DNA of 64,000 bases, taken from the NCBI RefSeq assembly GCF_012689525.1, contig NZ_CP051514.1, positions 2,422,080 through 2,486,079 of the forward strand, written 5' to 3'. The notes under the pieces are model-generated. The model was not told the origin of the DNA. It searched no databases and saw only the letters and a list, made by a program, of their open reading frames with translations. Positions within the stretch are counted from its first letter, which is position 1. Each line of letters starts with the position of its first letter. Position numbers and translations under genes: made by a program. Shown here one piece after another: positions 10,222-31,419 of the stretch. The stretch comes from Paraburkholderia aromaticivorans (GTDB lineage: Bacteria; Pseudomonadota; Gammaproteobacteria; Burkholderiales; Burkholderiaceae).

Positions 10222-11364
10222 TTAGAACGACGTCAGCAGTCCGAGTTCGGTTACGCTCTGAACCTTGCCGCTGGAAACGATGTTGCCGATTTCAGCAGCA
10301 TAGGCGCCATTCGTATGCTGGTACACACTGGTCAGATAGACCCTCGTGCGCCTCGACAGTGTGTGCGTGCCCTGAACGGCGACTTGATTGACGCGAACGT
10401 TCTTCAGCAGGTTGTTGCCAAATTCGTACGTATACGCCACACCGACATTCACCGCCGACGTCAGATCGTAGCCAGCGCCGGTCGCCAGTGCCGAGATACG
10501 CGCACCCGACTCCGTATTGCGTGCTTGAGCGTATAAGCCCGTTACGGACAGGCCGCCGAACCTGGTACGGGCGCCTGCCGTCAGGTTGGCCAGTCCGCCG
10601 TGGCCGGCGTTGATCAATGGCCAGTTCTGTACCGTGTAAACGACGGTAGCGCGGGTGTCGCCATGACAATACATCAGGGACGCACTCTTGCCCGAGCTAT
10701 TGTTAAAGTCACCGGCCACACCACCCATACTGTACATGACGCCGCCAGAGAATCCGCCGAAGTCATCGCTCATGAACTTGATGGCACTGCTCATGCGCTT
10801 GCCGCCGACGCGATCCCAATCGATGGCGCCCATGCCGTTGGGGATGCCCTGTGCATTGGTAATTGGCGCGAACGGACCGCCGCTGGCATAACCGGGGTGG
10901 CCGACGAGATCGGAGCCGAACGAACCCGTGCGGAAGTTCAGCATACCGCCTGCGATGCCCGTTGCCGGATCGATGCCAGTGATCAAGAAGTCATCGAAAT
11001 TGAAATCGTTCTGACGGCCGAAGCGGACGTCACCGATACCGGCCTTGCCCAAAGCGACCCACGCGGAGTTTTCGAACAACGCGCCGCCCGACTGCGGATC
11101 CAGCTCACCCGTGCTGATGCTGATCATCGAGTCGAGACTGAACGTCGCACGCAGGCCGTTGCCGAGGTCTTCACGACCACGGAAGAAGAACTTCGACGGA
11201 AAGATTGCTGAGTCCTACATCTGGACCAAGCGCTTGCCATTCGAGTTCCCATACACCGCGATGCCTTCATCGAGAAGGCCGCCGATCGTAACACTGCTTT
11301 GTGCCTGAGCACCGCTCACGGCGAGAGCACAAAGACTGAGAGCCATACCAAAACTTTTTCTCAT
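10222..11364 (-). pseudogene. Gram-negative porin (OmpC-like), broken by an amber codon
   Basis: From ATG 11364 the frame gives signal peptide MRKSFGMALSLCALAVSGA followed by QAQSSVTIGGLLDEGI, the usual start of Burkholderiales porins. At 11215-11217 an in-frame TAG falls about 50 codons in. The same frame then continues without further damage through FFFRGREDLGNGLRATFSLD and a complete series of outer-membrane strands, ending in a terminal Phe (LLTSF) as trimeric porins require. A single substitution, probably of CAG (Gln), would explain the loss. It is the last gene of the left block, 99 bp after the flavin reductase, and probably served substrate uptake. Translation from 11127 would lack a signal peptide. 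Confidence 0.85.
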
Positions 11365-11463
11365 AACCAGATTCATCTCCGCCTTATTGTTTTTTATTAG
11401 TATAACTGTTTTTCTATTGCGTGCAGTATGATGCGTGCCGTACCGCCTTCCGAAATTGTTAAA

Positions 11464-12009
11464 TTAGTTTGCCCCCCAGTTGGAGATCCACAGCAAATCA
11501 TGGAAATCGATGGCCTTATTCGTCTGAAATTCGCCGTAGGATCCTTGGGAATACAGCAGCGGCGCCGTTGTGTGGCCATTGATGGCCGTGCCTTCGACAT
11601 GCCCAAAAATCACGGCGTGCGTACCTATCTCGATGATGCGTTCGACGCTGCAATCTAAATTGACCATAGCACTGGCCAAAGCCGGGGCACCCGTCTTAAT
11701 ACGATTCCACGTCCCTGCCTGAAACTTTTCCTGCGGCGAAATCGGTCTCGAGAAACGCTGTGCCAATTCCTGCTCGCTGCGCGCCAGAACGTTGACGACG
11801 AAGTTGCCAGTGGCCTGCACGTGCGCCAGAGACGAGTTCGCACGATTGATACAGACCAGCAGGATAGGGGGCACCGCGCTAACAGACGTCACAGCGGTCG
11901 CGGTCATGCCGGCAAGCGGGCCGTCCGTGTCAGAACCAGTGGTGATCAAACACACGTGCCCGGTCAAACAGCGCATGGCGCGTTTGAATTCAGATTCTTC
12001 TACGCTCAC
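11464..12009 (-). CDS. Flavin reductase (DIM6/NTAB, HpaC-like)
   Basis: A 181-residue protein of the flavin-reductase-like domain family: FKRAMRCLTGHVCLITTG at the start, the flavin-binding GMTATAVTSVSAVPPILLVC segment at about residues 34-53, NFVVNVLARSEQELAQRFS, and a C-terminal HAVIFGHVEG strand. These enzymes use NAD(P)H to reduce free FMN or FAD for a partner monooxygenase. The natural partner here is the acyl-CoA-dehydrogenase-fold oxygenase at 18633, encoded in the opposite block. It lies 98 bp after the RraA-like genes and before the broken porin, with probable co-transcription. Confidence 0.85.
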   Translation of the reverse strand: MSVEESEFKRAMRCLTGHVCLITTGSDTDGPLAGMTATAVTSVSAVPPILLVCINRANSSLAHVQATGNFVVNVLARSEQELAQRFSRPISPQEKFQAGTWNRIKTGAPALASAMVNLDCSVERIIEIGTHAVIFGHVEGTAINGHTTAPLLYSQGSYGEFQTNKAIDFHDLLWISNWGAN

Positions 12010-12107
12010 TTCACCTTCCTAATCATAAAAACTAGACGGACAAGATGATAGGGTGGTTATCTTTACTGACACCACCTCATGCGATAGACCCGCAAGTCTC
12101 AGCCGGT

Positions 12108-12779
12108 TTACTGGTCCCAACCGAAGATACTGAGCGTGCTCACGCCCGCCTCTAGTCGCTTCATCTGATGTGCTTCTGCAGCTTCGCGTGCTTCCGATGC
12201 TGTGATCGCCTCGGCGATTCGCTCCCGCGGAATGCACACGACACCGTCTTCATCACCCACGATCAGGTCACCTGCATTTACCGTCACGTCGTCGAACCGA
12301 GTCGGGGCGTTGATCCAACCTCTGGCACCGAAATCTTTTCCCGTGCCACGGATACAAAGTCCGCGAGCGAAAACCGGAAAACCGATCTCGGACAACAGTC
12401 GCTGATCGCGAACACAGCCGTTAATGACGAGACCGGCAAGCCCGCGAACTTTTGCGGCCGTTGACATGATCTCGCCCCAGTACCCATGCTCATACGCTTC
12501 GCTTACAGAGACGACCAGAACATCTCCCGGTTCGGCTGAGTAAATCGCACGGTGAAGCCAGAGGTTATCGCCACCGGGCGAATGGACGGTCACGGCGGGT
12601 CCGCAAATCTTGAATCCTGGCGCGACGGGCTTAATTTCATAAGGAAGGACTCCGATCTTTCCGGCAGCCTCGTGAAGCGTTGCTGCCGGCAGTTTTGCGG
12701 CGGCGTTAATCAGAGTGATGTCCGGTCGCCGGATATCGAGGCGCGTGGTCTCGTGACGATTGAAAAGCGGTCCCGTCAT
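12108..12779 (-). CDS. RraA/CHA-aldolase-like protein 1
   Basis: A 223-residue member of the RraA-like fold, which includes 4-carboxy-4-hydroxy-2-oxoadipate (CHA) aldolase / oxaloacetate decarboxylase of the protocatechuate 4,5-cleavage pathway. The signature GLAGLVINGCVRD at about 113-125 keeps the Arg-Asp pair that binds pyruvate and the metal, but has Asn where the usual motif has Asp. It overlaps the stop of the next gene upstream by four bases (ATGA), implying translational coupling. It is the last of three consecutive paralogues. A role in the final retro-aldol step is inferred from the neighbours. Confidence 0.8.
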   Translation of the reverse strand: MTGPLFNRHETTRLDIRRPDITLINAAAKLPAATLHEAAGKIGVLPYEIKPVAPGFKICGPAVTVHSPGGDNLWLHRAIYSAEPGDVLVVSVSEAYEHGYWGEIMSTAAKVRGLAGLVINGCVRDQRLLSEIGFPVFARGLCIRGTGKDFGARGWINAPTRFDDVTVNAGDLIVGDEDGVVCIPRERIAEAITASEAREAAEAHQMKRLEAGVSTLSIFGWDQ

Positions 12780-13453
12780 GCTTTTTCTCCGATCCGGCGT
12801 GTTTGCAGTTGGTGGTACTTGAACTGCTTGCGAGCCTCGTCCAGGCGCATACCTGTTGCAACAGCCTCACGGATTGCCTTCTCGGCGGCATCGATTTCTT
12901 CAGCAGCAGCAAGCACGCGCTCTTCGTGTTCCTTCGGAATCGAGATCACGCCGTCAGCGTCACCGCGTAGCAGATCGCCAGGAGCAACACGCACGTTACC
13001 GATATTCACCGGAACGTTGGTGGCTTCGACCTGAACGCGATCCTTGCCCGTTCGCATCCAGTTGTCCTTGGAGAAAACCGGGTAGCCGAGCGACAGGCAG
13101 AGGTGTACGTCGCGGTTGACGCCGTCGATCACGGTACCGGCGATACCACGGCGATGAGCGATCTCGGTCAGGATGTCGCCCCATACCGTTGCGTCTTCGC
13201 GACCGCCGTTGTCGAGGACGATGACCGAGCCGGGCGGAACGTCGTCGATGAAGTCACCCACGGTGCCTGCGGGCGATGCGGCCGGGCCGTAGAGAATTGT
13301 GAAGGCCCGACCGGCCATACGGAACGACGAATCATGCGGCTTGATCTTGTAGCACTGACCGTTCAGGCCGATGCGGTCCAGTGCGTCGCTCAGGGTAGCC
13401 GTTTCGAGTTTCGCTGCGCGCGCAACGTTCGTGTCTTGTTCGATTTCCGACAT
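12776..13453 (-). CDS. RraA/CHA-aldolase-like protein 2
   Basis: A 225-residue paralogue of its two neighbours. The signature GIAGTVIDGVNRD (about 103-115) is complete, with Asp110 and the Arg114-Asp115 pair; WGDILTEIAHRRG precedes it as in true aldolases. A C-terminal helical extension (AAAEEIDAAEKAIREAVATG) is typical of CHA/HMG aldolases and absent from RNase-E regulator RraA. It starts 2 bp after the third paralogue ends and overlaps the first by 4 bp. Among the three it has one of the two complete active-site motifs. Likely reaction: cleavage of CHA or a related hydroxy-oxo acid to pyruvate and oxaloacetate. Confidence 0.82.
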   Translation of the reverse strand: MSEIEQDTNVARAAKLETATLSDALDRIGLNGQCYKIKPHDSSFRMAGRAFTILYGPAASPAGTVGDFIDDVPPGSVIVLDNGGREDATVWGDILTEIAHRRGIAGTVIDGVNRDVHLCLSLGYPVFSKDNWMRTGKDRVQVEATNVPVNIGNVRVAPGDLLRGDADGVISIPKEHEERVLAAAEEIDAAEKAIREAVATGMRLDEARKQFKYHQLQTRRIGEKA

Positions 13454-13455
13454 GG

Positions 13456-14118
13456 TTAATCCTTAAGCATAAGTTCGTAGTTTCCGCCCATGACTTCATG
13501 GATCGGCGTGCCCGCCAATACGGCCTTCGCCATCAAGGCTTCGCGTGCCACGATCGATTCGGCAGTCTCGATCACCTTGGCGATGTTTACGTGGCTGATG
13601 AAGATCACGGCGCTGCTATCCGCGATCACGTAGTCGCCGGCTTCTACCGAGACCCTGAACACTTCAACCGGAACGTTCACACCTTTTTCGACGATACGAC
13701 CACGAGCGGTGAGGGCGGTGAACTCATTCGCGAACACCGGCAGTCCCATCTCGCGGGATTCATCGATGTCGCGAACCGGACCGTCCGCGATCACGCCAGC
13801 GATCCCGCGAACCTTGGCGCCCAACGACAGGATGCCGCCCCACGAACCGGCTTCAATACCGGTACGCTGCTCGACAACGATCACATCGTCGGAGCCGCCG
13901 AGTTCGATGGCCGTGGTGCCCAGATGACGCGGCGCCCCCGGAGGCGGATCGCCAACACCGAGTTTCATCGTGATAACGCGACCGGCAATGCGCTTCGTGC
14001 CTGAGGCTTGGGCGACGCCGCTCACGACGCCGGACAAGCCGAGTTTGTCCAGTGCGTCCGATACAGCGCAGCAGTCCAACCGACGAAGGCGGTGGACATA
14101 TTCGTCTTTGGTTGCCAT
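13456..14118 (-). CDS. RraA/CHA-aldolase-like protein 3
   Basis: A 220-residue paralogue, first of the three in transcription order, 15 bp after the extradiol dioxygenase gene. The signature GIAGVIADGPVRD (about 105-117) is complete with Asp112, Arg116 and Asp117. The glycine-rich SGTKRIAGRVITMKLG and GSWGGILSLGAKV segments fit the RraA-like fold. It diverges enough from the other two to suggest a different substrate or a hetero-oligomer, but nothing in the sequence decides between these. The product is cytoplasmic. Confidence 0.82.
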   Translation of the reverse strand: MATKDEYVHRLRRLDCCAVSDALDKLGLSGVVSGVAQASGTKRIAGRVITMKLGVGDPPPGAPRHLGTTAIELGGSDDVIVVEQRTGIEAGSWGGILSLGAKVRGIAGVIADGPVRDIDESREMGLPVFANEFTALTARGRIVEKGVNVPVEVFRVSVEAGDYVIADSSAVIFISHVNIAKVIETAESIVAREALMAKAVLAGTPIHEVMGGNYELMLKD

Positions 14119-14133
14119 ATATTTGATATTTCC

Positions 14134-15161: not shown

Positions 15162-16175
15162 TTATTCGTAATCCGCAAGGTTGAGCTTGAAGAAGTCGCG
15201 AGCGTTGCCGAAGAAAATCGCATTCTTCTCTGCCTGCGAGAGCCAGTCGAAGCCTTCGATGTACGGCTTGATGTCGTCGAAGGTGCGGCCGGTGTCCGGG
15301 TTGATAGCCGAACCCACGCCCGGGCACTCGGCGCCGAACATGCAGCGGTCAGCGCCAACCGTCTTGATCAGCAGACGCAGCGATTCTTCCGAGTAGAGGA
15401 CGGTGTCGTAGTACAGGTTACGCATGCCGTCGAGGAAGTTGCGGCCGGCGCGCGAAGCGCCTGACTGGAAACGGCCGATCTGGTAGGGAATCGAACCGCC
15501 GCCGTGCGACACCATGATCTTCAGATTCGGGAAGTCCTTGAAGACGTTCGAGTTGACGAGGTTGAACACCGCGATGGTTTCTTCGTTGATGAAGTGAACG
15601 GTGTACGGCGAACGTGCCGAGTGCGAGCCGGTAGCGTGGATGTGGGCCGGCACGTCGAGTTCACACAGCTTTTCGTACAGCGGGTACCAGTAACGGTCAC
15701 CGAGGCCCGGGGCCTCGACACCGCTGTTTTCGAACGGGTCCGGATTCAGCATCACGCCCTTGAAGCCGAGTTCCTTGATGCAGCGTTCGAGTTCCGGCAG
15801 CACGACTTCGATCGGGTCGCCCGACACTTGCGGCAGGCCGCCGATACCGATGAACCGCTTCGGCAGCAACTTGACCGTGCGCGAGATAATGTTGTTGGTT
15901 TCTTCCGTGAACCAGTGCACGAGTTTGCCCGGCTTCTGGCTGTGCATCATCTGGAACGGACGCGGCGACATCAGCTGGACGTTCGTGCCGACGCGGTCGA
16001 GCATGTCGAGGTGGCCGACGGGTGCCATTTCCTTCTTGTTGGCGTAGTGCAGAATTTCTTCGTCGGTCACTTCCGGCATCTTGCGACCGTGTTCGCCGCG
16101 ATGCGACAGAATGTGTGCCTTGTATACCCACAATTCTGCGGGTGCGCTGACGTGACCGTGGCAATCGATAATCAC
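15162..16175 (-). CDS. Amidohydrolase-2 family, LigJ-like (4-oxalomesaconate hydratase type)
   Basis: A 337-residue TIM-barrel metal enzyme starting MIIDCHGHVSAP, with the DCHGH metal motif. The centre reads GVMLNPDPFENSGVEAPGLG, then DRYWYPLYEKLCELDVPAHI and HATGS, and later KIMVSHGGGSIPYQIGRF. These blocks match LigJ, which hydrates 4-oxalomesaconate to CHA, more than they match the related decarboxylase ACMSD. A late FGAECPG replaces the GSD metal-ligand region common in the superfamily. It sits between reductase and extradiol dioxygenase, 26 bp from the latter. It is the best anchor for a LigJ-LigK type lower pathway here. Confidence 0.78.
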   Translation of the reverse strand: MIIDCHGHVSAPAELWVYKAHILSHRGEHGRKMPEVTDEEILHYANKKEMAPVGHLDMLDRVGTNVQLMSPRPFQMMHSQKPGKLVHWFTEETNNIISRTVKLLPKRFIGIGGLPQVSGDPIEVVLPELERCIKELGFKGVMLNPDPFENSGVEAPGLGDRYWYPLYEKLCELDVPAHIHATGSHSARSPYTVHFINEETIAVFNLVNSNVFKDFPNLKIMVSHGGGSIPYQIGRFQSGASRAGRNFLDGMRNLYYDTVLYSEESLRLLIKTVGADRCMFGAECPGVGSAINPDTGRTFDDIKPYIEGFDWLSQAEKNAIFFGNARDFFKLNLADYE

Positions 16176-16223: not shown

Positions 16224-17180
16224 TTAAAGATCGAGGACGAGACGATCGCCCTTGCAGCCGGAACAGCAGATAATCATCGTCTTGTTCGAAGCCTTCTCGG
16301 GCTCCGAGAGAATGGCGTCGCGGTGGTCCGGCTCGCCTTGCAGCACGCGGACTTCACATGCGCCGCATACGCCTTCTTCACACGAATACGAAATCGGTAC
16401 ACCGGCATCACGCACGACGTTGAGAATCGTTTTGCCCTGCGGGACGGTCAGCGTCTTGCCGCTCTTGCGCAGTTCAACGACGAAGTTGCCATCGAGTGCG
16501 GCTTCGTGCTTGGCACTGAAGTACTCGACGTGGACTTGTTCCGGGGGCAACCTGTTGCAGGCCTTTTCGAATGCTTCAAGCATCGGGCCGGGGCCGCAGC
16601 AGTAGAAGTGGGCCGACCCCGGCTCCTGCTTCACGACGTCCGCGATATTGAGGAATGCGCCGACTTCGGCATCGACGTGAACGACCGAACCTTCGAACGT
16701 CTTCAATTCTTCGGCGTAGGCGACGTCGACCCGGTCTCGGCACGAATAATAGATACGCGGCGACTTTCCGATTTCCTTCAGGCGACGCGCCATACACAGA
16801 ATAGGCGTGATCCCGATACCACCGGCAACCAGAACCGTGTGCTCAGCGTCTTCGTCGAGAGGGAAGTTGTTGCGCGGGGTTTCGACCTGCACGAGGTCGC
16901 CGACACGCATCGTTTCGTGGATGTAGCGGGAGCCACCACGCGACCGCGGGTCGAGTTTGACGCCGATGACGTACGAACGCTGCGTCAGGCTATTGCTGGA
17001 CTGAAGGAGGGAGTACTGACGCGTCAATCCGTTCGGCAGGAACAGTGCGACGTGCGAACCCGCGTCGGCCGCGGGCAGACGCTCGCCTTCGGGGTCTTCA
17101 AATGTCAGAGCCAGCGTGTTGCGCGCCAAATATTGACTCGCTGTTAAGCGCAGAGTCATCACATCATGAACTTCGGTCAT
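16224..17180 (-). CDS. Phthalate-dioxygenase-reductase-type oxygenase reductase
   Basis: A 318-residue electron-transfer protein of the class IA (PDR/VanB) type: FMN domain with TRQYSLLQSS, NAD domain with VLVAGGIGITPILCMARRL and FYCCGPGPMLEAFEKAC, and a C-terminal plant-type 2Fe-2S domain with YSCEEGVCGACEVRVL and a later CCSGC. It would pass electrons from NADH to the Rieske oxygenases encoded at 20198 and 24519, neither of which has its own reductase. The start at 17180 has GGAGGTGAC directly upstream. First gene of the left block; the promoter lies in 17181-17417. Confidence 0.9.
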   Translation of the reverse strand: MTEVHDVMTLRLTASQYLARNTLALTFEDPEGERLPAADAGSHVALFLPNGLTRQYSLLQSSNSLTQRSYVIGVKLDPRSRGGSRYIHETMRVGDLVQVETPRNNFPLDEDAEHTVLVAGGIGITPILCMARRLKEIGKSPRIYYSCRDRVDVAYAEELKTFEGSVVHVDAEVGAFLNIADVVKQEPGSAHFYCCGPGPMLEAFEKACNRLPPEQVHVEYFSAKHEAALDGNFVVELRKSGKTLTVPQGKTILNVVRDAGVPISYSCEEGVCGACEVRVLQGEPDHRDAILSEPEKASNKTMIICCSGCKGDRLVLDL

Positions 17181-17417
17181 GTCACCTCCAAAATCGTAGA
17201 ACGCACGGAACCCCGTCAATGGTGCGCAAGCATTACACATCACGTTTTCTCAGGTACCGGCTTGTTGCATCGCAATCACCAATCATCGAAAGTCTCTCTC
17301 AACCCATTTGACGAAGAATTCTTTTTTGCATATTATTTGGGCTAGACAGAAAAAAGTCAAAGGCTCTTCAGAGCAAAACAGGCGACATCAGATAGGGTAT
17401 TCCCTTAAGGAGGAGAA
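17181..17417. promoter_or_regulatory. Divergent promoter region of the two catabolic blocks
   Basis: A 237-bp AT-richer interval between divergently read first genes. It contains TTGCATATTA at 17326-17335, related to the candidate GntR operator, and the right block begins with a strong AAGGAGGAG ribosome-binding site at 17407. No clear -35/-10 pair was assigned with confidence. Joint control of both blocks from here is likely by position. Confidence 0.5.
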
Positions 17418-19826: not shown

Positions 19827-20132
19827 ATGAACGTGGATGATATTCACTCGATCGAAGATTACTCGCCGGAAACGCTGCGTGAACTGATCGGGCGCGTGGA
19901 CAAGTCGAGTACGTTCGAACACATGATTTACCGCGAATCCGAGCTGGATGAAGTCTGGCGGCTGCTCGATAACGATATCGTGGCCGCTGCACGGCAGGGC
20001 TCGAATGCGCGGGAGGTGCAGAACCTTGTTGCCCTGCGCAAACTGATTGTCGACGCGCACGATTTCATTGGCAACGACAGCAACACCGTAGACGCGCGTG
20101 ATCGACTGCTGAAGTCCGTCGAACTCGTTTAA
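19827..20132 (+). CDS. Uncharacterised 101-residue protein
   Basis: A small, acidic, probably all-helical soluble protein (MNVDDIHSIEDYSPETLREL at the start) with no cysteines and no recognised motif. It begins 9 bp after the monooxygenase stop with AAGGA upstream and precedes the Rieske oxygenase gene, so it is clearly in the same transcript. Codon use matches its neighbours, which supports a real gene. It may be an accessory subunit of one of the flanking oxygenases; no evidence beyond position. Confidence 0.7.
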   Translation: MNVDDIHSIEDYSPETLRELIGRVDKSSTFEHMIYRESELDEVWRLLDNDIVAAARQGSNAREVQNLVALRKLIVDAHDFIGNDSNTVDARDRLLKSVELV

Positions 20133-23428: not shown

Positions 23429-24274
23429 ATGATCGACAGCCACGCACACCTGATTTCGACCGACCGTGAGAAGTATCCGCCGTCGCCGCTGAGCGGTGTT
23501 CTCGAAGAAAACGCATTCGACAACCCCGTGACGGCCGAGCGCCTGATCGACCTGCTCGACGCATTGGGTATCGATAAGGCGCTCGCGGTCCAACGTGCGC
23601 ACCTCTACGGCTTCCACAACGACTACGTCGTGGATTCGGCACAGAAATACCCGAATCGTCTGCGTTCGCTGTGTATGCTCGACGCACTGGCACCGAACGT
23701 CGAAGAAACGGTGAAATACTGGGTCGGCGAGCGCAAGTCTGTCGGCATCCGTCTGACGGAACCGAAGAAAGGTGCAGACAGCAGCTGGTTCGCATCGACG
23801 GAAGCGCGTCGTGCCTGGGCAGCAGTGACGGATCTCGGCGGCTCGGTGCGTCTGCACTTCTACCGCTGGAATCGTCTGGCAGCACTCGAAGCACTCCAGG
23901 ACGTCGTGAAGAAGTTCCCGGATACGCCGGTCATTCTCGATCACTTCTCGAATATCGTCGGCGAAGACCCGGGACCGGACTACGGTGTGGACGAAGCATT
24001 GCTGAAGTTCGTGGACAGCCCGAACGTCTTCCTGCTGTACTCCATGATCAACCTCGGCAAGTTGAAGGCGCTCGACCTGCCGTCCGCGCCGGTTGTTGAG
24101 CGCGTGGTGCGTTCGTTCGGTGCCGATCGTGTGATGTGGGGTTCCGACATCGCTCAGTCGAAGGGCGAGTACAAGGACATGGTTCAGATGGCTAAGGACT
24201 CCGTGTCCACACTGTCGGCTGAAGATCAGCAGAAGGTCCTGCATACGACAGCTGAACGCGTCTACTTTAGCTAA
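23429..24274 (+). CDS. Amidohydrolase-2 family TIM-barrel hydrolase, second copy
   Basis: A 281-residue protein starting MIDSHAHLISTDREKYPPSP, with the same overall design as the hydrolase at 21459 but low direct similarity. VILDHFSNIVGEDPGPDYG holds the middle histidine and VMWGSDIAQSKGEYKDM the catalytic Asp. It closes the first part of the right block: a strong hairpin follows 12 bp later. The likely substrate is a lactone, pyrone or beta-keto acid derived from ring opening; the sequence does not identify it. Confidence 0.75.
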   Translation: MIDSHAHLISTDREKYPPSPLSGVLEENAFDNPVTAERLIDLLDALGIDKALAVQRAHLYGFHNDYVVDSAQKYPNRLRSLCMLDALAPNVEETVKYWVGERKSVGIRLTEPKKGADSSWFASTEARRAWAAVTDLGGSVRLHFYRWNRLAALEALQDVVKKFPDTPVILDHFSNIVGEDPGPDYGVDEALLKFVDSPNVFLLYSMINLGKLKALDLPSAPVVERVVRSFGADRVMWGSDIAQSKGEYKDMVQMAKDSVSTLSAEDQQKVLHTTAERVYFS

Positions 24275-24436: not shown

Positions 24437-24580
24437 ATGCGCAAACTGGCAGGTCCGTTGTGTGTCGCACCTTGTTCTCGATTTATCCGTTCTCGATTCC
24501 TTTCTCAGGAGACTGAAAATGAAGTTCCTCCGGAATTGCTGGTATATGGTTGGATGGTCGAGCGAGTTGTCGGCTACTGA
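24437..24580 (+). CDS. Possible 47-codon leader ORF
   Basis: ATG at 24437 is preceded by AAGGAGGTC, a better ribosome-binding site than that of the oxygenase itself. The frame runs 47 codons and ends 60 bp inside the VanA-like gene in another frame, so its translation could couple to or interfere with that gene. No homology recognised. It may be fortuitous. Confidence 0.3.
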   Translation: MRKLAGPLCVAPCSRFIRSRFLSQETENEVPPELLVYGWMVERVVGY

Positions 24581-25583
24581 TATCGTCCCGTTCACGCTGA
24601 TGAACGAGGCACTGGCGCTCTATCGCAAAGAAGACGGCACGCTGGTAGCACTCGAAGATCTGTGTCCGCACCGCCTGGTTCCGCTGTCGGTCGGCCGTAA
24701 GGAAGGTGATGAACTGCGCTGCATGTACCACGGCCTGAAATTCGCCGCAGATGGACGCTGCACTGAAATCCCGGGCACCGATCGTATCTCGTCGAAGGTC
24801 TGCGTTCGTAGCTACCCGATCGAAGAAAAGCATGGTGCTGCATGGGTCTGGATGGGTGACGCTGCAAAGGCCGATCCCGCACTGATTCCGCCGATCGAAG
24901 GTCCGGACAGCGCTATCTTCGCGATGAAATGCTCGAAGAAAGTATGGAAGGGCAATGCGGAAATTGTCGCTGATAACTTGCTCGACCTGTCACACGCACC
25001 TTATGTTCACGAAGCGACGTTCGGTGCCAACAACAAGGTGTCGATCAAGATTCAGAAGGAAGGCGAAGCAAAACGCGGTATCGATACGATCGAGCGTGGC
25101 GTCGTTGCTGACCGCTGGCACCTGGGCCGTCCGTCAAATCCTTACTTCGGTGAAATCCCCTCCGACGATAACGTGGTCAGCACGTTCCTCGTACCGGGCG
25201 TCTTCATCCTAAAGATCCATTCGTACGCACCGGGCGTTCAGGATCGTCTCGTCGATGGCAAGCCTGCAGAAGAGCCGATCTTTCGCCGTTGCACATGCCA
25301 GATGATCACGCCGATCAACGATACGGAATCGATGTTCTTCTACAACTTCGGTCCGGATCACGAGCATGCCGATTTGGCAGATCACGCTTTCGCGATCGCC
25401 GAAGCAGCATTCGCCGAAGACAGGGCAATCATCGAGACGCAGCAGGCAACGATCTCGAAAACGCCGGCTCGCAAGATGATTATGTTGGTGATGGATCAGC
25501 CGGTGCTGCGTTACAACGAAATCTACAACCGTCTTCGCTCGGCGGAGGAGACTGAGCAAGCCGCGGCTGCGCCCTCAGCGTAA
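24519..25583 (+). CDS. Rieske non-heme iron oxygenase, VanA-like
   Basis: A 354-residue alpha subunit beginning MKFLRNCWYMVGWSSELSAT, close to the start of vanillate O-demethylase and related oxygenases. Rieske site: Cys49-x-His51 and Cys68-x2-His71 (CPHR, CMYHG). Mononuclear site: NLLDLSHAPYVHEATF with Asp156, His159 and His164. The start at 24519 has CAGGAGA upstream. It differs from the phthalate-dioxygenase type at 20198 and probably performs a demethylation or a second hydroxylation, using the reductase at 16224. First clear gene of the second right-hand transcript. Confidence 0.88.
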   Translation: MKFLRNCWYMVGWSSELSATDIVPFTLMNEALALYRKEDGTLVALEDLCPHRLVPLSVGRKEGDELRCMYHGLKFAADGRCTEIPGTDRISSKVCVRSYPIEEKHGAAWVWMGDAAKADPALIPPIEGPDSAIFAMKCSKKVWKGNAEIVADNLLDLSHAPYVHEATFGANNKVSIKIQKEGEAKRGIDTIERGVVADRWHLGRPSNPYFGEIPSDDNVVSTFLVPGVFILKIHSYAPGVQDRLVDGKPAEEPIFRRCTCQMITPINDTESMFFYNFGPDHEHADLADHAFAIAEAAFAEDRAIIETQQATISKTPARKMIMLVMDQPVLRYNEIYNRLRSAEETEQAAAAPSA

Positions 25584-25633
25584 GTAGATCGCACGGCGCT
25601 GGTATGTTTTCTGAGACACAGGGAATGACGAAA

Positions 25634-27196
25634 ATGGAATTGAACTGGACCGAGCCCCAATGGGATGAGCAAGCCGATATGGTTGTTGTCGGCTATGGCG
25701 GCGCAGGCGCGGTGTTTGCATTCGAAGCCGCTGAACAGGGCGCCGACGTGCTCATTCTCGAAAAGGGTGTGCAGGGCGGCGGCAACTCGGTCTGTGTCGC
25801 GGGTGGTCTGATCATGACCTCCGTGGATGAAGACGAGTCGTTCAAATATCTGGATTGGCTGTGCGGAGGCCAAACAGATGAAAGCGTTCTTCGCCATTTC
25901 GTTTCGAGTCTCAAGAACATACCGTCGTGGCAGCACAAACTCGAATTGCCGCTCAAGGATAACCCGCAGCCGTTCTCGGCACCGGGGTTTTTTCCCGAGT
26001 TCCCGGGCGCTCCGGGCGGGGAAAGCATCAAGGGTATGAGCGTCGTAGCCGCACCGGGCGGTGCAGGCCTCTGGAATGCGATCTCCGCACAAGCGGAGAA
26101 GGCGGGTGCCCGCGTTCAGTGCAATACACGGGTCACCAGGTTGGTTCAGCACCCGGTGACGAAACGGATCCTTGGCGTTCAAGCCGAACATGATGGCAAG
26201 ACGATCGCAGTTCGTGCTCGCAAGGCAGTAGTGTTGGCCAGCGGCGGCTTTGAAGCCAACGATGCCATGTGCAAACAGTTCCTGACTGCATGCCCGATCT
26301 ACTTCCTTGGTAGCCCGAATCTGACCGGCGACGGCATCCGCATGGCGCAGGAAGTTGGTGCGCAACTATGGCACATGAACGCCGTAGCGGGCCCGCTAAA
26401 CATGGGCATCAAGACGAAGGAAGGCTACGTCTACGTGACGTACGATCTGAACAAGGTCGCGGGCTTCGGCTACAAAAACGGTGCCTTTAAGGACGGCGGC
26501 AGTCTGTTGTGGGTGAACCGACAGGCGAAGCGCTTCCATAACGAAACCGTGGATACATCGGTTGTTCAACACGGATTGGCAAACCGCGATACATGGTTGG
26601 CAACGACGCCGGGCACCCCGGAATTCACGAACGTGCCGGCATTTCACATCTTCGATGAGAAGGTCCGTTCCGGTGGCGCGGCAATGACGACGCTGAATTC
26701 GCGCGTGCCGCCGTGGTCGCAAGACAACGTCAAGGAACTCGAAGAAGGTCTGATCATCAAGGCCGATACGCTCGAAGAACTGGCGTTGAAGTGCCAGTGG
26801 CCGGAAATCAAGGGTGTGTGCAAGGCAGGCCACCTCGATCCGGCCGCACTTCGCGAGACGGTCGAGCGTTACAACGATCAATGCCGCAACAACGTCGATC
26901 GAGATTGCGGTCGCGAAACGTTCCTCGTGCCGCTCAACGATGAAGGCCCGTTTTACGCGATTGGGCCGATGCTACCGACATATCTGAACACGCACGGCGG
27001 TCCGAAGCACGATGCCGGTCAGCGTGTTCTCGATCACCAGAACAAGCCGATTGCCGGTCTTTATGCAATCGGGGAGTGTGGATCGCTATGGGGTCCGTAT
27101 TACAACTCGATGGGCGATATCGCCGAATTCATCGTGTCTGGCGTGACTGCGGCAAGAACCGCACTTGCCGACAGTGAGGCGCGGGAAAGTCGCTAA
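25634..27196 (+). CDS. FAD-dependent oxidoreductase, fumarate-reductase/ketosteroid-dehydrogenase type
   Basis: About 520 residues. The N-terminal dinucleotide fold is MVVVGYGGAGAVFAFEAAEQ, then ADVLILEKG; the second FAD part (GLYAIGECGSLWGPYYNSMG) lies near the C-terminus, giving the FAD_binding_2 layout. A middle capping domain carries VVLASGGFEAND. ATG at 25634 is preferred because AGGGA lies 9 bp upstream; ATGs at 25625 and 25604 are in frame. Family members reduce or oxidise carbon-carbon double bonds, so a role on an enoate or cyclohexadiene intermediate is plausible. Confidence 0.82.
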   Translation: MELNWTEPQWDEQADMVVVGYGGAGAVFAFEAAEQGADVLILEKGVQGGGNSVCVAGGLIMTSVDEDESFKYLDWLCGGQTDESVLRHFVSSLKNIPSWQHKLELPLKDNPQPFSAPGFFPEFPGAPGGESIKGMSVVAAPGGAGLWNAISAQAEKAGARVQCNTRVTRLVQHPVTKRILGVQAEHDGKTIAVRARKAVVLASGGFEANDAMCKQFLTACPIYFLGSPNLTGDGIRMAQEVGAQLWHMNAVAGPLNMGIKTKEGYVYVTYDLNKVAGFGYKNGAFKDGGSLLWVNRQAKRFHNETVDTSVVQHGLANRDTWLATTPGTPEFTNVPAFHIFDEKVRSGGAAMTTLNSRVPPWSQDNVKELEEGLIIKADTLEELALKCQWPEIKGVCKAGHLDPAALRETVERYNDQCRNNVDRDCGRETFLVPLNDEGPFYAIGPMLPTYLNTHGGPKHDAGQRVLDHQNKPIAGLYAIGECGSLWGPYYNSMGDIAEFIVSGVTAARTALADSEARESR

Positions 27197-27230: not shown

Positions 27231-28568
27231 GTGAGTGAGACCGCAGAAGTACAAACGAAGTCGGCGCCCGCCGACAACGTGGAAGATTCAAAGACGTCCA
27301 AAGGTGCATGGTGGATGCTCATCGTCTTGACGGCCACGTATGTCATCTCGTTTATCGATCGGGGCGCGCTGGCTCTCGTCGTCGGGCCGATCAAGGAAGA
27401 CCTCGGAATTTCCGATCTTCAGGTCAGTTTGTTGCTTGGCCTTTCTTTCATGTTGCTGTATAGCGTGCTCAGTATTCCAATGGGCATACTGGTCGATAAG
27501 TACCAGCGTAAGACGCTCCTCGGCGGCGCGATCATGGCATGGTCGGTGGTGCAGATGCTGTGTGGTCTGAGCACGACCTATATCCATTTGTTCTTGACGC
27601 GCGTTGGTCTCGGTGTCGGTGAATCGGCGCTGGCTCCCGGTTCTCAGTCGATGATTCGTGACGCATTTCCGCCGCATCGTCGCAGTATTGCCTTCGGTAT
27701 CTACAATATCGGCCCGATGTTGGGTACGGGTTTGTCGATGGCTCTCGGTGCCGTCCTGTTGAAGGCAGCATCGGCAGGCGCATTCGATAGTCTACCCCTC
27801 GTCGGCGGCATGAAGCCGTGGCACTATGTGCTGCTGGTGCCCGGCATCATTGGGATTCCGTTCGCGATTCTCCTTTTGCTGCTGCGTGAGCCGGCCCGTC
27901 GCTTTCAGACCGATACTTCCGAGGTGACGTACAAGCAGACCATGTGCTTCGTATGGAAGAATCGTGGCGTGTACATTCCGCTCTGGACTGCGATTTGTCT
28001 ATACGGTATTGCCATCGGCTCGCAGATGGCATGGCTTCCGGAAATCATCGCTCGTACGCTACATGTTGCGCGTCCGGAAATCGGTAAGGCAATCGGTGGC
28101 GTTGCACTGCTCGCTTCCCCGCTCGGTCTTCTGATCTGCGGCAGTATCGCGGACCGGCTGCGCAAGCGCGGTATGGTCGATGCGCCTGTTCGGGTGGCGG
28201 CGGTAACAACGGCAATCGCGGCAGTCGCTACGGCATGCTTCCCGCTTGTCCATACGATGAGCGCGGGTATCGTCCTCTACTTCATCCAAATGTTCATGTT
28301 TGCGATGTTCGCGGTGGCAGGCGGTGCAACGAATGCCAACTTCACGCCCGGTAACATGATGGGCAAGATCACCGCCATCTATTACTTGATCACGAATCTC
28401 GTCGGTTTGGCACTCGGCCCTACAGTGGTGGCGCTCGTCGCTAAATTCTTCGACGGTCCGAATGCACTCGGCGCCTCGTTCGTCATCTGCTACGTGGTCT
28501 CCGTGACATTGGCGGTGATTCTGCTGATCCGCGTCTGCGGTGCATTGCGTGGGCCGGTTGTGCAATAA
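27231..28568 (+). CDS. Major facilitator superfamily transporter (spinster/ACS-like)
   Basis: A 445-residue protein with GTG start behind AAGGAGAC. About 12 membrane segments are visible, beginning WWMLIVLTATYVISFIDRGA. The MFS loop 2-3 motif is PMGILVDKYQRKTLLG and the motif after helix 4 is RVGLGVGESALAPGSQSMIR. The FIDRGALALVVGPIKEDLG start resembles aromatic-acid and anion:cation symporters. It is likely to import the pathway substrate across the inner membrane. It is embedded between catabolic enzymes with short gaps. Confidence 0.85.
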   Translation: MSETAEVQTKSAPADNVEDSKTSKGAWWMLIVLTATYVISFIDRGALALVVGPIKEDLGISDLQVSLLLGLSFMLLYSVLSIPMGILVDKYQRKTLLGGAIMAWSVVQMLCGLSTTYIHLFLTRVGLGVGESALAPGSQSMIRDAFPPHRRSIAFGIYNIGPMLGTGLSMALGAVLLKAASAGAFDSLPLVGGMKPWHYVLLVPGIIGIPFAILLLLLREPARRFQTDTSEVTYKQTMCFVWKNRGVYIPLWTAICLYGIAIGSQMAWLPEIIARTLHVARPEIGKAIGGVALLASPLGLLICGSIADRLRKRGMVDAPVRVAAVTTAIAAVATACFPLVHTMSAGIVLYFIQMFMFAMFAVAGGATNANFTPGNMMGKITAIYYLITNLVGLALGPTVVALVAKFFDGPNALGASFVICYVVSVTLAVILLIRVCGALRGPVVQ

Positions 28569-28634
28569 CTGGTAGTCGTCTCGGGGCATCATGTCTGACG
28601 TCCCTTTCTACGAATTCATATAGGTTTAAATCAG

Positions 28635-29810
28635 GTGAAGATTACCCGCGTTGAGTGCATTCCGATTTCGATGCCGCTGAAGAAGCCGATTAAGCTTCCG
28701 AATGTCACAATCACTTGCCTGAATACGCTTTTCTTGGCTATTACAGCCGACGACGGTCTCGTCGGCTATGCGGAATCGGGTGACACATCATCGTGGTATC
28801 GCGGTGAAAGCCAGGCATCCATGACGGCGATGATTTCCGATATTTTCGCGCCGCGAATCCTGCTTGGTGAAGATCCGAGCAATATCGAGAAGATCGTCGG
28901 CATGATGGATCAACTCGCACGCGACAACAATCAGGCGAAGGCGTTGGTTGACTGTGCGCTCCATGACCTGAAGGGCAAAGCTTTGGGCGTGCCAGTCTAC
29001 AGCCTGTTGGGTGGCCGCACTCGCGAGAAGATACCGCTCGGTTGGGTATTGTCGGCGGGTGAGCCCGAAAAGGTCGCAGAACTGGCGATCCAGGTCCGCG
29101 ATAATGGCTTCTCGGCGGTCAAGCTCAAAGTCGGCCGTCATACGTTCAACACCGACGTGGCTACGGTCCGCGAAGTGCGAGCGGCGCTCGGGCCGGAAGC
29201 CAAGATCATCTTGGACGCGAATGGCTCATGGAACTATGAACAGGCGTTGACGACGATGAAACGCCTCGATCAATACAACCTTTCGTTCATGGAACAGCCT
29301 CTGGCGCATCAATACCGCGACAGCCTGGCGAAACTGCGTGAGCGTGTCAACACGCCAATATACGCAGACGAGGGGGCGCAAGAGTTGGGCGATCTGCGTG
29401 AAATCGCAGAGCGTCGTTCGGCCGATGGCGTCGTTCTCAAGATTCAAAAGGTAGGCGGACTGGTCAAGGCACAGCGATTCCTAGCTGCATGTCGCATGTA
29501 CGACATTCCTGTGTTTTGCAGCACTCTGATCGGATCGGGCGTCGAATCCGGGCCGAGCACGCATCTCATGGTCGCAAACGATTGGGCATGCCAGTTCATG
29601 AGCGAAAGTATGGGGCCGCTCGCGATTCACGCGGCTTGGAACAGTGGCGATATCCGGGTAGATCAGGACTTGGCTTTCGGTGGCCAGCGCTTTAGCGGCG
29701 GCTTTGCATATCCGAGTGAAGGCGTCGGATTCGGCTTCGAATTGAATCAAGAACTACTGGCCAAGATTCATTCGCCGGGACAGCAGCATCGGGTCGCCGA
29801 AGCGCAATAG
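28635..29810 (+). CDS. Enolase-superfamily enzyme (mandelate racemase / muconate lactonising type)
   Basis: A 391-residue protein with GTG start. The barrel active site shows the AVKLKVG base motif (Lys163, Lys165), metal ligands in ILDANGSW (Asp194), FMEQPL (Glu220) and YADEGAQ (Asp245), and a KIQK second base region, the muconate-lactonising/dipeptide-epimerase arrangement rather than mandelate-racemase His-Asp. Such enzymes abstract a proton next to a carboxylate, giving racemisation, dehydration or cycloisomerisation. In this operon a lactone-forming or dehydration step on a ring-fission product is likely; the specificity cannot be read from sequence. Confidence 0.85.
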   Translation: MKITRVECIPISMPLKKPIKLPNVTITCLNTLFLAITADDGLVGYAESGDTSSWYRGESQASMTAMISDIFAPRILLGEDPSNIEKIVGMMDQLARDNNQAKALVDCALHDLKGKALGVPVYSLLGGRTREKIPLGWVLSAGEPEKVAELAIQVRDNGFSAVKLKVGRHTFNTDVATVREVRAALGPEAKIILDANGSWNYEQALTTMKRLDQYNLSFMEQPLAHQYRDSLAKLRERVNTPIYADEGAQELGDLREIAERRSADGVVLKIQKVGGLVKAQRFLAACRMYDIPVFCSTLIGSGVESGPSTHLMVANDWACQFMSESMGPLAIHAAWNSGDIRVDQDLAFGGQRFSGGFAYPSEGVGFGFELNQELLAKIHSPGQQHRVAEAQ

Positions 29811-29879
29811 CAGAGCACACAGCGGCGGACACGATTCGGCCGCGTCGCATAAACGTAATCCGACAGAGGAGATAATTCG

Positions 29880-30392
29880 ATGCAAGGACTTGCTTCGCCA
29901 CCGTGGAAATACGCGGTACTTTGGCTCCGGGTCTATTTCGGCGCCGATCTTTTGTGGTCTGGTTTCCGCTATCTCTCCACAGGCTGGGTTCCGTTTATTC
30001 CCGGCATCGCAGGTCAATACGTGCAGGCACTTGATGCCATTCACATGTTCTATGCCGTGAAGGCAATGGAAATGCTGGCTGGTATCCTGCTGCTGACGAA
30101 CCGATACGTGTTGCTCGGCGCGATTCTCGAATTCCCGACATCGATCTCGATTTTCTGGATCAATACCTTCATCGTTGGAACCCCACGTCAATTGTTCTCT
30201 GGCCCGAATCAGCTGCTGATGAATGGCCTCATTCTGCTGGCGTATGGCGGATATATGGCGAGCGTGTTCAAGCCAAACAAGCCGCTCGCGGTATGGGAAG
30301 GCTTCAAGGTCGATGTCTGGAAAGAGCACCTGAGGCTGAGTAAAGGTGCTAAACCGGCCGCGACAGTTGAAGTATCGGGCGACGTCGCGTAA
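29880..30392 (+). CDS. DoxX-like integral membrane protein, module copy 1
   Basis: A 170-residue protein with four probable membrane helices: WKYAVLWLRVYFGADLLWSG, then AMEMLAGILLLTNRYVLLGA, SISIFWINTFIV and NGLILLAYGGYMASVF. The conserved blocks SPPWKY at the start, TPRQLFSGPNQLLMNGL in the middle and a Trp-rich charged tail recur in the copies at 30701 and 41290. DoxX-like proteins often accompany oxidoreductases, possibly as membrane quinone or electron partners, but the family role is poorly known. It starts behind AGAGGAG and is followed 12 bp later by a small membrane protein. Confidence 0.78.
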   Translation: MQGLASPPWKYAVLWLRVYFGADLLWSGFRYLSTGWVPFIPGIAGQYVQALDAIHMFYAVKAMEMLAGILLLTNRYVLLGAILEFPTSISIFWINTFIVGTPRQLFSGPNQLLMNGLILLAYGGYMASVFKPNKPLAVWEGFKVDVWKEHLRLSKGAKPAATVEVSGDVA

Positions 30393-30404
30393 AGGAGTGC
30401 GCAA

Positions 30405-30602
30405 ATGAAAAAAAGTAATCGGAATCTTTATATCGGCCTCGCCTGCTGTGTGATCATGACGTGCTGGGTATTCTTCGGGTCCACAGGACTGGGCTATACC
30501 GAATATCGAGCATTGCGCGCACGCGATATGTTCGGCCTGGCAATTCCATGGATATGCGTCGTCATCGTCTTGATTCGCGATCGTCGCAGAGGCATTGTAT
30601 AA
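30405..30602 (+). CDS. Small two-helix membrane protein, module copy 1
   Basis: A 65-residue protein starting MKKSNRNLYIGLACCVIMTC, with a first membrane helix, a GSTGLGYTEYRALRARDMFG connector and a second helix ending VLIRDRRRGIV. The same pattern (MKK, helix, GSTG...DYR-LR--D-FGL, helix, LIRD) recurs at 31231 and, more weakly, at 41757, each time directly after a DoxX-like gene. AAGGAG precedes the ATG. Function unknown; it is likely a partner subunit of the DoxX-like protein. Confidence 0.75.
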   Translation: MKKSNRNLYIGLACCVIMTCWVFFGSTGLGYTEYRALRARDMFGLAIPWICVVIVLIRDRRRGIV

Positions 30603-30700
30603 CCGGCTCTCCGGTGGTAGCGGCTGTGCCACTACCTTTGGGATATGCTCTCGGCATATTTCGTCGCTGTACTGCAGTAACTTCTTGGAATTATTTCACT

Positions 30701-31219
30701 ATGCAAAGCGCTAATTCTTCCCCTTGGAAGTACGTCATTACGTGGCTTCGTCTTTATTTCGGCGCACACCTTTTCTTTTCCGGCATTCGATTCGTGATCG
30801 ACGGTTATGTACCGATGGTTCCAGGTCTCGCTGGTGAATATCTGGCCGGTGCCGACGCAATCGGTATGTATCACTGGGTCAAATATATGGAAGCGATTTA
30901 TGGTCTCCTGCTTCTGACAAACCGTTTTGTCTTCCTGACGCTGATTCTCGAAATGCCGACCACCGTCACGATTTTTTGGCTGAATACGTTCATTTCGGCA
31001 ACACCGCGTCAATTGTTTTCGGGCCCGCAAGAACTACTGATGAACGGTTTGCTGCTGCTCGCGTATAGCGGCTACATGGCGGCATGCTTCCGTCCGAGCC
31101 TGAATCCGATGTGGTTGTGGGACGGTTGGAAGGGGTTCCACCTGAAGGGCAAAGGTGGTCTGGTGAACACCAACCCGAGCTTGGTCGGCGTTTCTATCGA
31201 AGAAAAAGAATCGGCTTAA
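30701..31219 (+). CDS. DoxX-like integral membrane protein, module copy 2
   Basis: A 172-residue paralogue of the protein at 29880: SSPWKYVITWLRLYFGAHLF at the start, TPRQLFSGPQELLMNGLLLL in the centre, then a WLWDGWKGF-containing tail. Four membrane helices. The frame is open far upstream, but homology and the SSPWKY block set the start at 30701; no strong ribosome-binding site is visible there. Followed 11 bp later by its small partner. Confidence 0.78.
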   Translation: MQSANSSPWKYVITWLRLYFGAHLFFSGIRFVIDGYVPMVPGLAGEYLAGADAIGMYHWVKYMEAIYGLLLLTNRFVFLTLILEMPTTVTIFWLNTFISATPRQLFSGPQELLMNGLLLLAYSGYMAACFRPSLNPMWLWDGWKGFHLKGKGGLVNTNPSLVGVSIEEKESA

Positions 31220-31230
31220 GGAGCATTCGC

Positions 31231-31419
31231 ATGAAAAAGAATACCTGGATCGCAACCGCCATCTGTATCGCTCTGACGCTGCTGGCCATCGACGGCTCGA
31301 CGGGTTGGGGTTGGGCGGACTACCGTCCGCTGCGCAACTTCGACTACTTTGGTCTCGGCATTTCCTGGCTGCTTTTCATCTTCGTGCTCATCCGCGACAA
31401 GATCAAGGGCGAAGCCTGA
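31231..31419 (+). CDS. Small two-helix membrane protein, module copy 2
   Basis: 62 residues, MKKNTWIATAICIALTLLAI then GSTGWGWADYRPLRNFDYFG and a second helix ending FVLIRDKIKGEA. It is clearly paralogous to the protein at 30405. TAAGGAG precedes the ATG. It is the last gene of the core cluster before IS6 copy 1 begins 18 bp later, so anything originally downstream may have been lost. Confidence 0.78.
   Translation: MKKNTWIATAICIALTLLAIDGSTGWGWADYRPLRNFDYFGLGISWLLFIFVLIRDKIKGEA

Follow-up and report, generated by a model that had tools for sequence, protein, structure and literature searches.

We have analyzed a 64,000-nucleotide stretch of the Paraburkholderia aromaticivorans genome (the window in what follows; contig NZ_CP051514.1, positions 2,422,080 to 2,486,079) and found in it two divergent blocks of genes that we read, with a probability of about 0.5, as a catabolic island shared by horizontal transfer, whose substrate would be a bulky aromatic acid, most probably a biaryl different from 5,5'-dehydrodivanillate (DDVA). 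The key REASSIGNMENT of the island would be a LigY-type hydrolase together with a DesZ/LigZ-type extradiol dioxygenase, a core whose predicted chemistry is related to known lignin-fragment pathways. We infer the reactions, the biaryl nature and the substrate from homology, gene order, co-occurrence and a conserved promoter sequence. From the centre outward, the minus block contains a reductase, the LigY-type hydrolase, the dioxygenase, three RraA-like proteins (RraA3, RraA2 and RraA1), a flavin reductase and a porin. The plus block contains a beta-propeller protein, a flavin monooxygenase, a protein of 101 aa, Rieske oxygenase A, amidohydrolase AH1, an alcohol dehydrogenase (ADH), amidohydrolase AH2, Rieske oxygenase B, an FAD enzyme, an MFS transporter, an MLE-like enzyme and two DoxX-like modules (Table 1). 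Neighbouring genes of the minus block are separated by -4 to 98 nt. In the plus block the gaps measure 7 to 187 nt, until a larger one of 308 nt opens before the second DoxX-like gene. All the enzyme classes named in a first-pass annotation of this DNA are present with Pfam support, and the dioxygenase, hydrolase and RraA genes are adjacent as it described, except that the RraA-like genes are three and not one.

The 397-aa LigB open reading frame (ORF) is over-long, and starting at the ATG at 15135 gives a protein of 333 aa with the N-terminus of the family. Its identity to the proteins of Sphingobium SYK-6 was 46% for the LigZ of DDVA catabolism and 55% for a second copy at 2.0999 Mb, for which reason we do not consider it a LigZ orthologue. 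Against the NCBIfam class III models it reached at most 79.6 bits (PRK13364, cut-off 290), all the cut-offs being at least 286, and only 46 of the 412 bits of the gallate dioxygenase model, so that a LigAB/GalA-type enzyme was also rejected. In a tree of 46 rows the island dioxygenase, the second SYK-6 copy, sphingomonad loci, three Acidobacteriota and two Nocardiaceae grouped in a fork of 24 rows (support 88/94), with ligZ outside it on a long branch of unsure placement. The adjoining hydrolase, taken before as LigJ-like, matched the LigY structures 5vn5 and 6e6i (the hydrolase of the 2,2',3-trihydroxy-3'-methoxy-5,5'-dicarboxybiphenyl meta-cleavage compound) with 490 bits and E 2.1e-146, versus 217 bits and E 2.6e-63 for the LigJ-type 4-oxalomesaconate hydratases, and the LigJ identity had to be abandoned. 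It is 62% identical to SYK-6 LigY and 72% to the copy adjoining the second SYK-6 dioxygenase; in a tree of 33 rows ligY fell outside the fork joining the island, the second SYK-6 copy and another Paraburkholderia locus (91/92). With these scores the LigAB/GalA-LigJ-LigK frame originally proposed for the island does not stand. The impression that the genes match no known pathway stands only in part: the core is of the DesZ/LigZ-LigY type, and the remaining genes fit no assigned role.

Close dioxygenase copies are found in SYK-6 at 818.8 kb, with a LigY homologue at 821.2 kb, and at 2.0999 Mb, with a LigY homologue at 2.0989 Mb. The former pair was taken as ligZ (SLG_07720) and ligY (SLG_07750) because the order is right, two genes lie between them and a passage of PMC6874591 places ligXa, ligZ and ligY together in this strain. 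Rieske oxygenase A was only 36% identical to the presumed LigXa and about 59–60% to the copy at the second locus, and was likewise discarded as a LigXa orthologue. The second SYK-6 dioxygenase is probably desZ, the gene of 3-O-methylgallate 3,4-dioxygenase, listed as SLG_19030 in a table of PMC12997858, since this locus tag interpolates to 2.06–2.10 Mb and the copy is the sole class III match there. The estimate was ~2.06 Mb between two aminomethyltransferase-family matches (at 1385.6 and 2693.0 kb, taken as ligM, SLG_12740, and desA, SLG_25000) and ~2.10 Mb from the ligZ-LigB slope; of the six places found in SYK-6 with a LigZ query, that at 2.0999 Mb is alone in the span from 1.36 to 4.04 Mb. 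According to passages of PMC6888825, DesZ cleaves 3-O-methylgallate to CHMOD, from which 'a hydrolase' yields 4-oxalomesaconate, and for syringate it is the gallate route via LigM and DesB that is crucial. Among the open-licence papers searched we found no description of the gene neighbourhood of this probable desZ locus, only desZ itself being named.

In a tree built with 76 distinct RraA-like proteins of the loci, the RraA-fold proteins separated into three groups. Where the HMG/CHA aldolase 3noj has the Asp of its D-x20-R-D motif, there is Glu in 22/22 RraA1 (plus one row named RraA2 inside that group), Asp in 27/27 of the remaining RraA2 and Gly in 26/26 RraA3, all of which read G-x20-R-D-x2-E. 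The two motifs reportedly described by Mazurkewich et al. in 2014 are D-x20-R-D and G-x20-R-D-x2-E/D. A passage of PMC5065237 states that the majority of RraA homologues have, for binding the metal and for catalysis, one of two motifs. RraA1 passed the PRK09262 model (188 bits, cut-off 179) and was under TIGR02798 (174 of 304.5), with Glu in the motif, and RraA2, with the motif Asp, was under both cut-offs. The SYK-6 DDVA locus has the gene order ligZ-RraA3-RraA2-ligY; there the identities to the island proteins were 75% for RraA2 and 55% for RraA3, and the RraA2 of both SYK-6 loci are 83% identical to each other. These RraA2 values suggest that the dienoate is the same as in DDVA catabolism, most likely 4-carboxy-2-hydroxypenta-2,4-dienoate (CHPD). 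Over five loci (the island, two further loci of the same genome and the two of SYK-6) the mean pairwise identity was 74% for RraA2, 62% for RraA1 (four loci), 59% for both LigY and RraA3, and 41% for both LigZ and the Rieske oxygenase. The proteins of the presumed lower pathway are more conserved than LigZ and the Rieske enzyme, a pattern that a single lower pathway serving several substrates would produce. Table 2 of PMC12673573 lists the alkene (CHPD) hydration step of SYK-6 as NI, not identified. Because the RraA3/RraA2 pair sits between ligZ and ligY in SYK-6, we propose that it performs CHPD hydration and HMG cleavage, either protein being a candidate for either step.

The genes of both blocks travel together. 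Five markers were searched in 144 Paraburkholderia genomes, that of the window included, with thresholds that we chose to exclude distant paralogues (Rieske A E<=1e-150, dioxygenase E<=1e-140, propeller E<=1e-100, FAD enzyme E<=1e-150, 101-aa protein E<=1e-8), and were each found in the identical 10 genomes. The distance between the dioxygenase and FAD genes was 13.0–13.8 kb in 10/10 of them, and Cupriavidus pinatubonensis keeps the order Rieske B-FAD-MFS-MLE-DoxX with extra DoxX-like genes. Scanning one genome from each of 84,980 species produced 53 pattern matches, and at 32 of these a dioxygenase relative is encoded. In these 32 loci (flanks of at most 10 kb, several contigs being shorter; presence meaning at least 35% identity over at least 50% of the query) the propeller was present in 18 and the flavin monooxygenase, Rieske A, the 101-aa protein and AH1 in 17 each.

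Both blocks meet, in a gap of 174 bp, at a single conserved predicted divergent promoter. Towards the plus block it reads TTGACG-17-TATTAT (17308–17336) and towards the minus block TTGACT-17-AATAAT (17360–17332), so placed that the two -10 hexamers have 5 bp in common. If each start lies 7 nt beyond its -10, a geometry derived from the sequence alone, the predicted start sites are 18 bp apart, which passages of PMC10268837 and PMC12825309 describe as the most frequent layout among bacterial bidirectional promoters. The region from -29 to +34 around GCATATTATTT had a mean identity of 88% in 11/11 Burkholderiales loci (the window, L019–L027 and L045, several of them close relatives), compared with 49% and 56% in the flanks; the anchor GCATATTATTT lies inside the counted region, and in two of the 11 loci (L023 and L045) the motif itself served to locate the stretch. 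The window has a single copy of the 15-mer TTTTTTGCATATTAT, which is absent from the sphingomonad loci compared and from the Caballeronia locus. The marker co-occurrence, the gene order kept into Cupriavidus and this promoter agree with the idea, already put forward in the first-pass annotation, of a single catabolic unit. As part of such a unit, the additional enzymes may well act, as also suggested there, on a more complex, perhaps methoxylated, substrate.

In the pathway that we envisage the substrate would enter through the porin and the MFS transporter. Rieske A with the reductase, and/or the flavin monooxygenase with the flavin reductase, would produce a catechol beside the ring substituent, and the DesZ/LigZ-type dioxygenase would open the ring between the catechol and the carbon bearing the substituent. 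The LigY-type hydrolase would then release the substituent as an acid, leaving a C6 dienoate, most likely CHPD, the dienoate of the DDVA type, that RraA3 and RraA2 (with RraA1) would hydrate and cleave to two pyruvates. Rieske B, the FAD enzyme, ADH, the lactonase-like amidohydrolases, the MLE-like enzyme and the propeller may act on side chains or on the second ring. A biaryl rather than METHYLGALLATE is argued for by the conservation of the RraA proteins: should CHPD be what RraA2 and RraA3 work on in DDVA catabolism, finding them in the island would indicate that LigY again cuts a C–C bond to release CHPD, a product that the methyl ester derived from 3-O-methylgallate would not give.

Several observations weigh against this biaryl reading. 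The nearest characterized relative of the dioxygenase is probably SYK-6 DesZ, which cleaves the single-ring 3-O-methylgallate (a table of PMC12997858 and passages of PMC6888825), and because of this we lowered our probability from 0.6 to the 0.5 given above. At least one of the five island partners was found in 19/32 dioxygenase loci, and the 13/32 with none belong to 10 Acidobacteriota, 2 Nocardiaceae (with Rieske relatives at 33–34%, below the survey threshold) and 1 alphaproteobacterium. In a Hyphomonadaceae metagenome-assembled genome (L028) the dioxygenase and upper genes have no LigY or RraA within 21 kb; this locus contains the dioxygenase, flavin monooxygenase, 101-aa protein, Rieske A, ADH, AH1, propeller, AH2 and a MetE-like gene. 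The LigY tree places another Paraburkholderia copy closer to the island than the second SYK-6 copy (84/92), and the Rieske tree (24 rows) was unresolved (74/78, long branches). Finally, all three RraA proteins could be lyases, the hydratase role being putative.

The main rival, to which we give clearly less credit than to the biaryl acid, is a methoxy- or aryloxy-gallate pathway. Here the ring opened by the DesZ-type dioxygenase would be that of 3-O-methylgallate, or of a 3-O-aryl analogue of the 4-O-5 diaryl ether type, and the LigY-type enzyme would then hydrolyse the ester so formed and not a C–C bond. It draws on the 55% identity to the probable DesZ, on the unnamed hydrolase that converts CHMOD to 4-oxalomesaconate in SYK-6 (PMC6888825, in the passage cited above), on two Rieske enzymes that could be O-demethylases and on the RraA1 score over the CHA-aldolase cut-off. 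However, RraA2 and RraA3, common to the DDVA locus, point to CHPD and not to 4-oxalomesaconate, the hydrolase is 62% identical to LigY, a C–C hydrolase, and much of the gene set would be superfluous for a single methoxylated ring. Besides, the crucial role of the LigM/DesB route for syringate (same source) means that 3-O-methylgallate may not be the main substrate of DesZ. A Burkholderiales version of the DDVA pathway itself seems to us improbable: the LigY (62%) and LigZ (46%) identities, the common ligZ-RraA3-RraA2 order and a VanA-type Rieske would fit it, but SYK-6 has both loci and the dioxygenase, LigY and Rieske of the island match the non-DDVA one better, ten island genes have no tblastn match in the 38 kb around SYK-6 ligZ/ligY, and the island regulator is GntR, not MarR as in a passage of PMC6874591.

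Slightly less credible still is LigZ/LigY-type chemistry on another ring substituent (aryl ketone, flavonoid-like or steroid-like). The HsaA-like monooxygenase and the FAD_binding_2 enzyme do resemble steroid-ring enzymes, and the presence of lactonase-like amidohydrolases, an ADH and an MLE-like enzyme suggests that part of the substrate is alicyclic or a lactone, but the HsaA and ketosteroid dehydrogenase equivalog cut-offs were missed and, among solved structures, the hydrolase is nearest to the biaryl meta-cleavage one. We hardly believe in a protocatechuate 4,5-cleavage or gallate pathway with extras, for which RraA1 passes PRK09262 (188 of 179 bits), given a dioxygenase far under the LigAB/GalA models and a hydrolase closer to LigY than to LigJ. 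Equally hard to sustain is that insertion sequences assembled two or more unrelated operons: the window has many transposase and reverse transcriptase genes, but the dioxygenase-FAD spacing is constant in the positive genomes of the genus, the order is kept in Cupriavidus and no transposase was found inside the 10.2–31.4 kb block.

A more speculative proposal, which we consider doubtful as a whole, joins the pieces: the island and the probable desZ locus would represent one undescribed type of biaryl-acid pathway, the 3-O-methylgallate activity of DesZ would be a side reaction, the propeller would be a new cytoplasmic enzyme, the 101-aa helical protein a new partner of a Rieske oxygenase, and RraA3 (or RraA2) an RraA-fold hydratase filling the CHPD step of lignin biphenyl degradation. 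If true, bulky lignin-type acids would have a second and more widely distributed route, present in Paraburkholderia, Cupriavidus and sphingomonads, and what textbooks assign to desZ in SYK-6 may cover its function only in part. CHPD hydration, NI in the PMC12673573 table, would become directly testable, with the propeller and the small helical protein nominated as pathway components.

No signal peptide was seen by eye in the propeller, for which 1053 homologues were found. An alignment of 44 sequences (that of the window and 43 of the best 120 of the 1053) contained many invariant polar residues, among them H97, H156, K158, D205, H207, R208, D251 and E311, and the invariant residues lie at or beside the starts of five different strands predicted by AF2. 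In this model the conserved residues look more like an active site than a scaffold; fold matches other than 3b7f were generic. The 101-aa protein had no Pfam match, and a word-based search of 5.8 billion proteins gave 33 homologues, the named ones from Burkholderiales and nearly all annotated as 'hypothetical' or of unknown function; the sphingomonad copies in the loci are more distant. The flavin monooxygenase cannot be called HsaA (286 bits, NCBIfam equivalog cut-off 450), nor the FAD enzyme a ketosteroid dehydrogenase, its equivalog cut-off being missed as well. The DoxX modules mentioned in the earlier annotation hold for one copy as a weak profile match (E 0.006, under the gathering score) and the other copy gave none; each DoxX-like gene forms, with the gene of a ~62–65 aa membrane protein, a tandem pair that occurs twice at 29880–31419(+).

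The genome of the window has two further dioxygenase/LigY/RraA loci, at 1.12 and 1.14–1.15 Mb (L016, L017 and L071; 1.112–1.165 Mb), with dioxygenases only 35–38% identical to that of the island, suggesting up to three related specificities within one genome. In sphingomonad loci L033 and L035 an YciI-domain gene follows RraA1, and the L033 cluster has an additional alpha/beta hydrolase and an Amidohydro_2 gene.

The limits first given to the island, 10222–31419, were too short, because blastn blocks to Paraburkholderia fynbosensis reach 3657 and 44685. The collinearity is broken by, among others, a group II intron-type reverse transcriptase (7.8–9.3 kb) and ~7 kb with insertion sequences (31.4–38.4 kb). 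The former is split over two ORFs, 7829–9317(+), between collinear parts. The latter separates the island from its displaced right end and contains transposase genes (an ORF at 31494–32213(-), overlapping sequence labelled IS6 in the record of one plasmid; DDE_3 at 32400; rve-type at 36999), together with an AraC-type regulator at 33464–34414. Pfam and NCBIfam scans found the window to be rich in transposase and reverse transcriptase genes, with no transposase among the proteins of the 10.2–31.4 kb block. In all Paraburkholderia and Cupriavidus loci whose stretch reaches that far, a homologue of the GntR/FCD regulator that flanks the minus block lies at the corresponding end. Of the porin beside the flavin reductase, at 10222–11376(-), P. 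fynbosensis keeps a remnant only. Elsewhere in the window there are an OrfB/IS605 transposase of TnpB type with a Cas12f1-like TNB domain at 260–2068(-), a second group II intron reverse transcriptase/maturase as a single intact ORF at 46498–47865(+), a flavoprotein of the phenol 2-monooxygenase subfamily at 56600–58549(-) (1044 bits, cut-off 560) and, near the right end, a second HsaA-like flavin monooxygenase at 62430–63788(+).

Table 1. Features of the island and its flanks, in window coordinates.
Feature	Coordinates	Strand	Basis
Left flank, collinear with P. fynbosensis; GntR/FCD regulator at 3813–4490	3657..4723	+	blastn 87%, Pfam
Left flank, collinear with P. fynbosensis; TctC-like fragment at 6673–7362	5736..7369	+	blastn 77%, Pfam
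GntR/FCD-family regulator flanking the minus block	9470..10174	+	Pfam GntR+FCD
Porin gene with one in-frame stop; ORF 10222–11127 is the downstream piece	10222..11376	-	Porin_4, frame check
Flavin reductase, presumed partner of the flavin monooxygenase	11464..12009	-	Flavin_Reduct; RutF/HsaB/HpaC-like, all under equivalog cut-offs
RraA1, LigK-like HMG/CHA aldolase class, E-x20-R-D	12108..12779	-	PRK09262 188 bits (cut-off 179), clade, motif
RraA2, RraA-fold, D-x20-R-D aldolase motif	12776..13453	-	aligned to HMG/CHA aldolase 3noj
RraA3, RraA-fold, G-x20-R-D-x2-E	13456..14118	-	motif in 26/26 rows
DesZ/LigZ-type extradiol dioxygenase, 333 aa	14134..15135	-	PF02900 (LigB), SYK-6 identities, tree
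LigY-type meta-cleavage product hydrolase	15162..16175	-	Amidohydro_2; 5vn5 E 2.1e-146
Oxygenase reductase, NAD-binding and C-terminal [2Fe-2S]	16224..17243	-	PF00111, PF00175
Predicted conserved divergent promoter	17308..17360		alignment of Burkholderiales loci, sequence geometry
Beta-propeller (BNR/YCF48-like)	17418..18560	+	Pfam, alignment, AF2 pLDDT 91.7, fold matches
Group D flavin monooxygenase, HsaA/HPAH-C2-like	18633..19817	+	HsaA 286 bits; 3afe, 2rfq, 2jbr
101-aa four-helix protein adjoining the Rieske gene	19827..20132	+	alignment, AF2 pLDDT 92
Rieske oxygenase A, LigXa_C family	20198..21451	+	PF19301
Amidohydrolase AH1, lactonase-like	21459..22253	+	PF04909; weak PDC-hydrolase match 2ffi E 2e-10
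Zinc-type medium-chain ADH	22281..23384	+	PF08240, PF00107
Amidohydrolase AH2, lactonase-like	23429..24274	+	PF04909; weak fuconolactonase and sulfomuconolactone hydrolase matches
Rieske oxygenase B, VanA-type	24462..25583	+	PF19112 (VanA_C), PF00355
FAD_binding_2 flavoprotein, flavocytochrome c / ketosteroid dehydrogenase superfamily	25604..27196	+	profile matches
MFS transporter	27231..28568	+	PF07690
Enolase-superfamily enzyme, MLE-like (MR_MLE)	28635..29810	+	closest solved relative 2qde, E 1.3e-135
Two DoxX-like membrane proteins (29880–30392, 30701–31219), each followed by a ~62–65 aa membrane protein	29880..31419	+	ORFs, weak DoxX
Displaced right end: porin (-), small proteins, DoxX-like, DctP-type binding protein, DHA2-type MFS	38450..44685		86% blastn block to P. 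fynbosensis; Pfam/NCBIfam

Among known systems, the probable desZ locus of SYK-6 (2.08–2.11 Mb; L069/L070) is the one that has most in common with the island: RraA2 (74%), LigY (72%), ADH (71%), RraA3 (65%), RraA1 (63%), flavin monooxygenase (61%), Rieske A (about 59–60%), propeller (57%), dioxygenase (55%), two GntR regulators (46%), flavin reductase (44%), AH1 (42%), an AH2-like protein (33%) and a 38% match over 72 residues to the 101-aa protein. It differs in having no clear Rieske B counterpart (29% at best), no match to the FAD enzyme, MFS, MLE-like and DoxX-like genes or the reductase (tblastn, E 1e-5) and, by eye, a TonB-receptor-like ORF where the island has the porin.

The DDVA pathway of the same strain (LigXacd, LigZ, LigY; ddvTKR) has in common with the island the LigZ- and LigY-type enzymes, a LigXa_C-family Rieske and RraA3-RraA2 beside ligZ, with lower identities than the probable desZ locus (dioxygenase 46 versus 55%, LigY 62 versus 72%, Rieske 36 versus about 59–60%) and a MarR regulator (PMC6874591, same passage) where the island has GntR. 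In the 38 kb around ligZ/ligY the matches, leaving aside cross-hits within the RraA and Rieske families, were ligZ, RraA3 (55%), RraA2 (75%), ligY, a 25% LigY match and distant Rieske genes (31–32% to Rieske A); flavin monooxygenase, propeller, 101-aa protein, flavin reductase, AH1, AH2, ADH, MFS, FAD and MLE gave none there (tblastn, E 1e-5). The protocatechuate 4,5-cleavage and gallate routes (LigAB or GalA/DesB, LigJ, LigK) use the same class III extradiol superfamily and the same Amidohydro_2 and RraA folds, with a dioxygenase and a hydrolase of other subfamilies than those of the island. In the mhqPOD DDVA pathway of Paenibacillus the demethylase and dioxygenase are listed, in the part of PMC12673573 cited, as unrelated to those of SYK-6, and the chemistry proposed there is the same, including CHPD hydration and an HMG aldolase.

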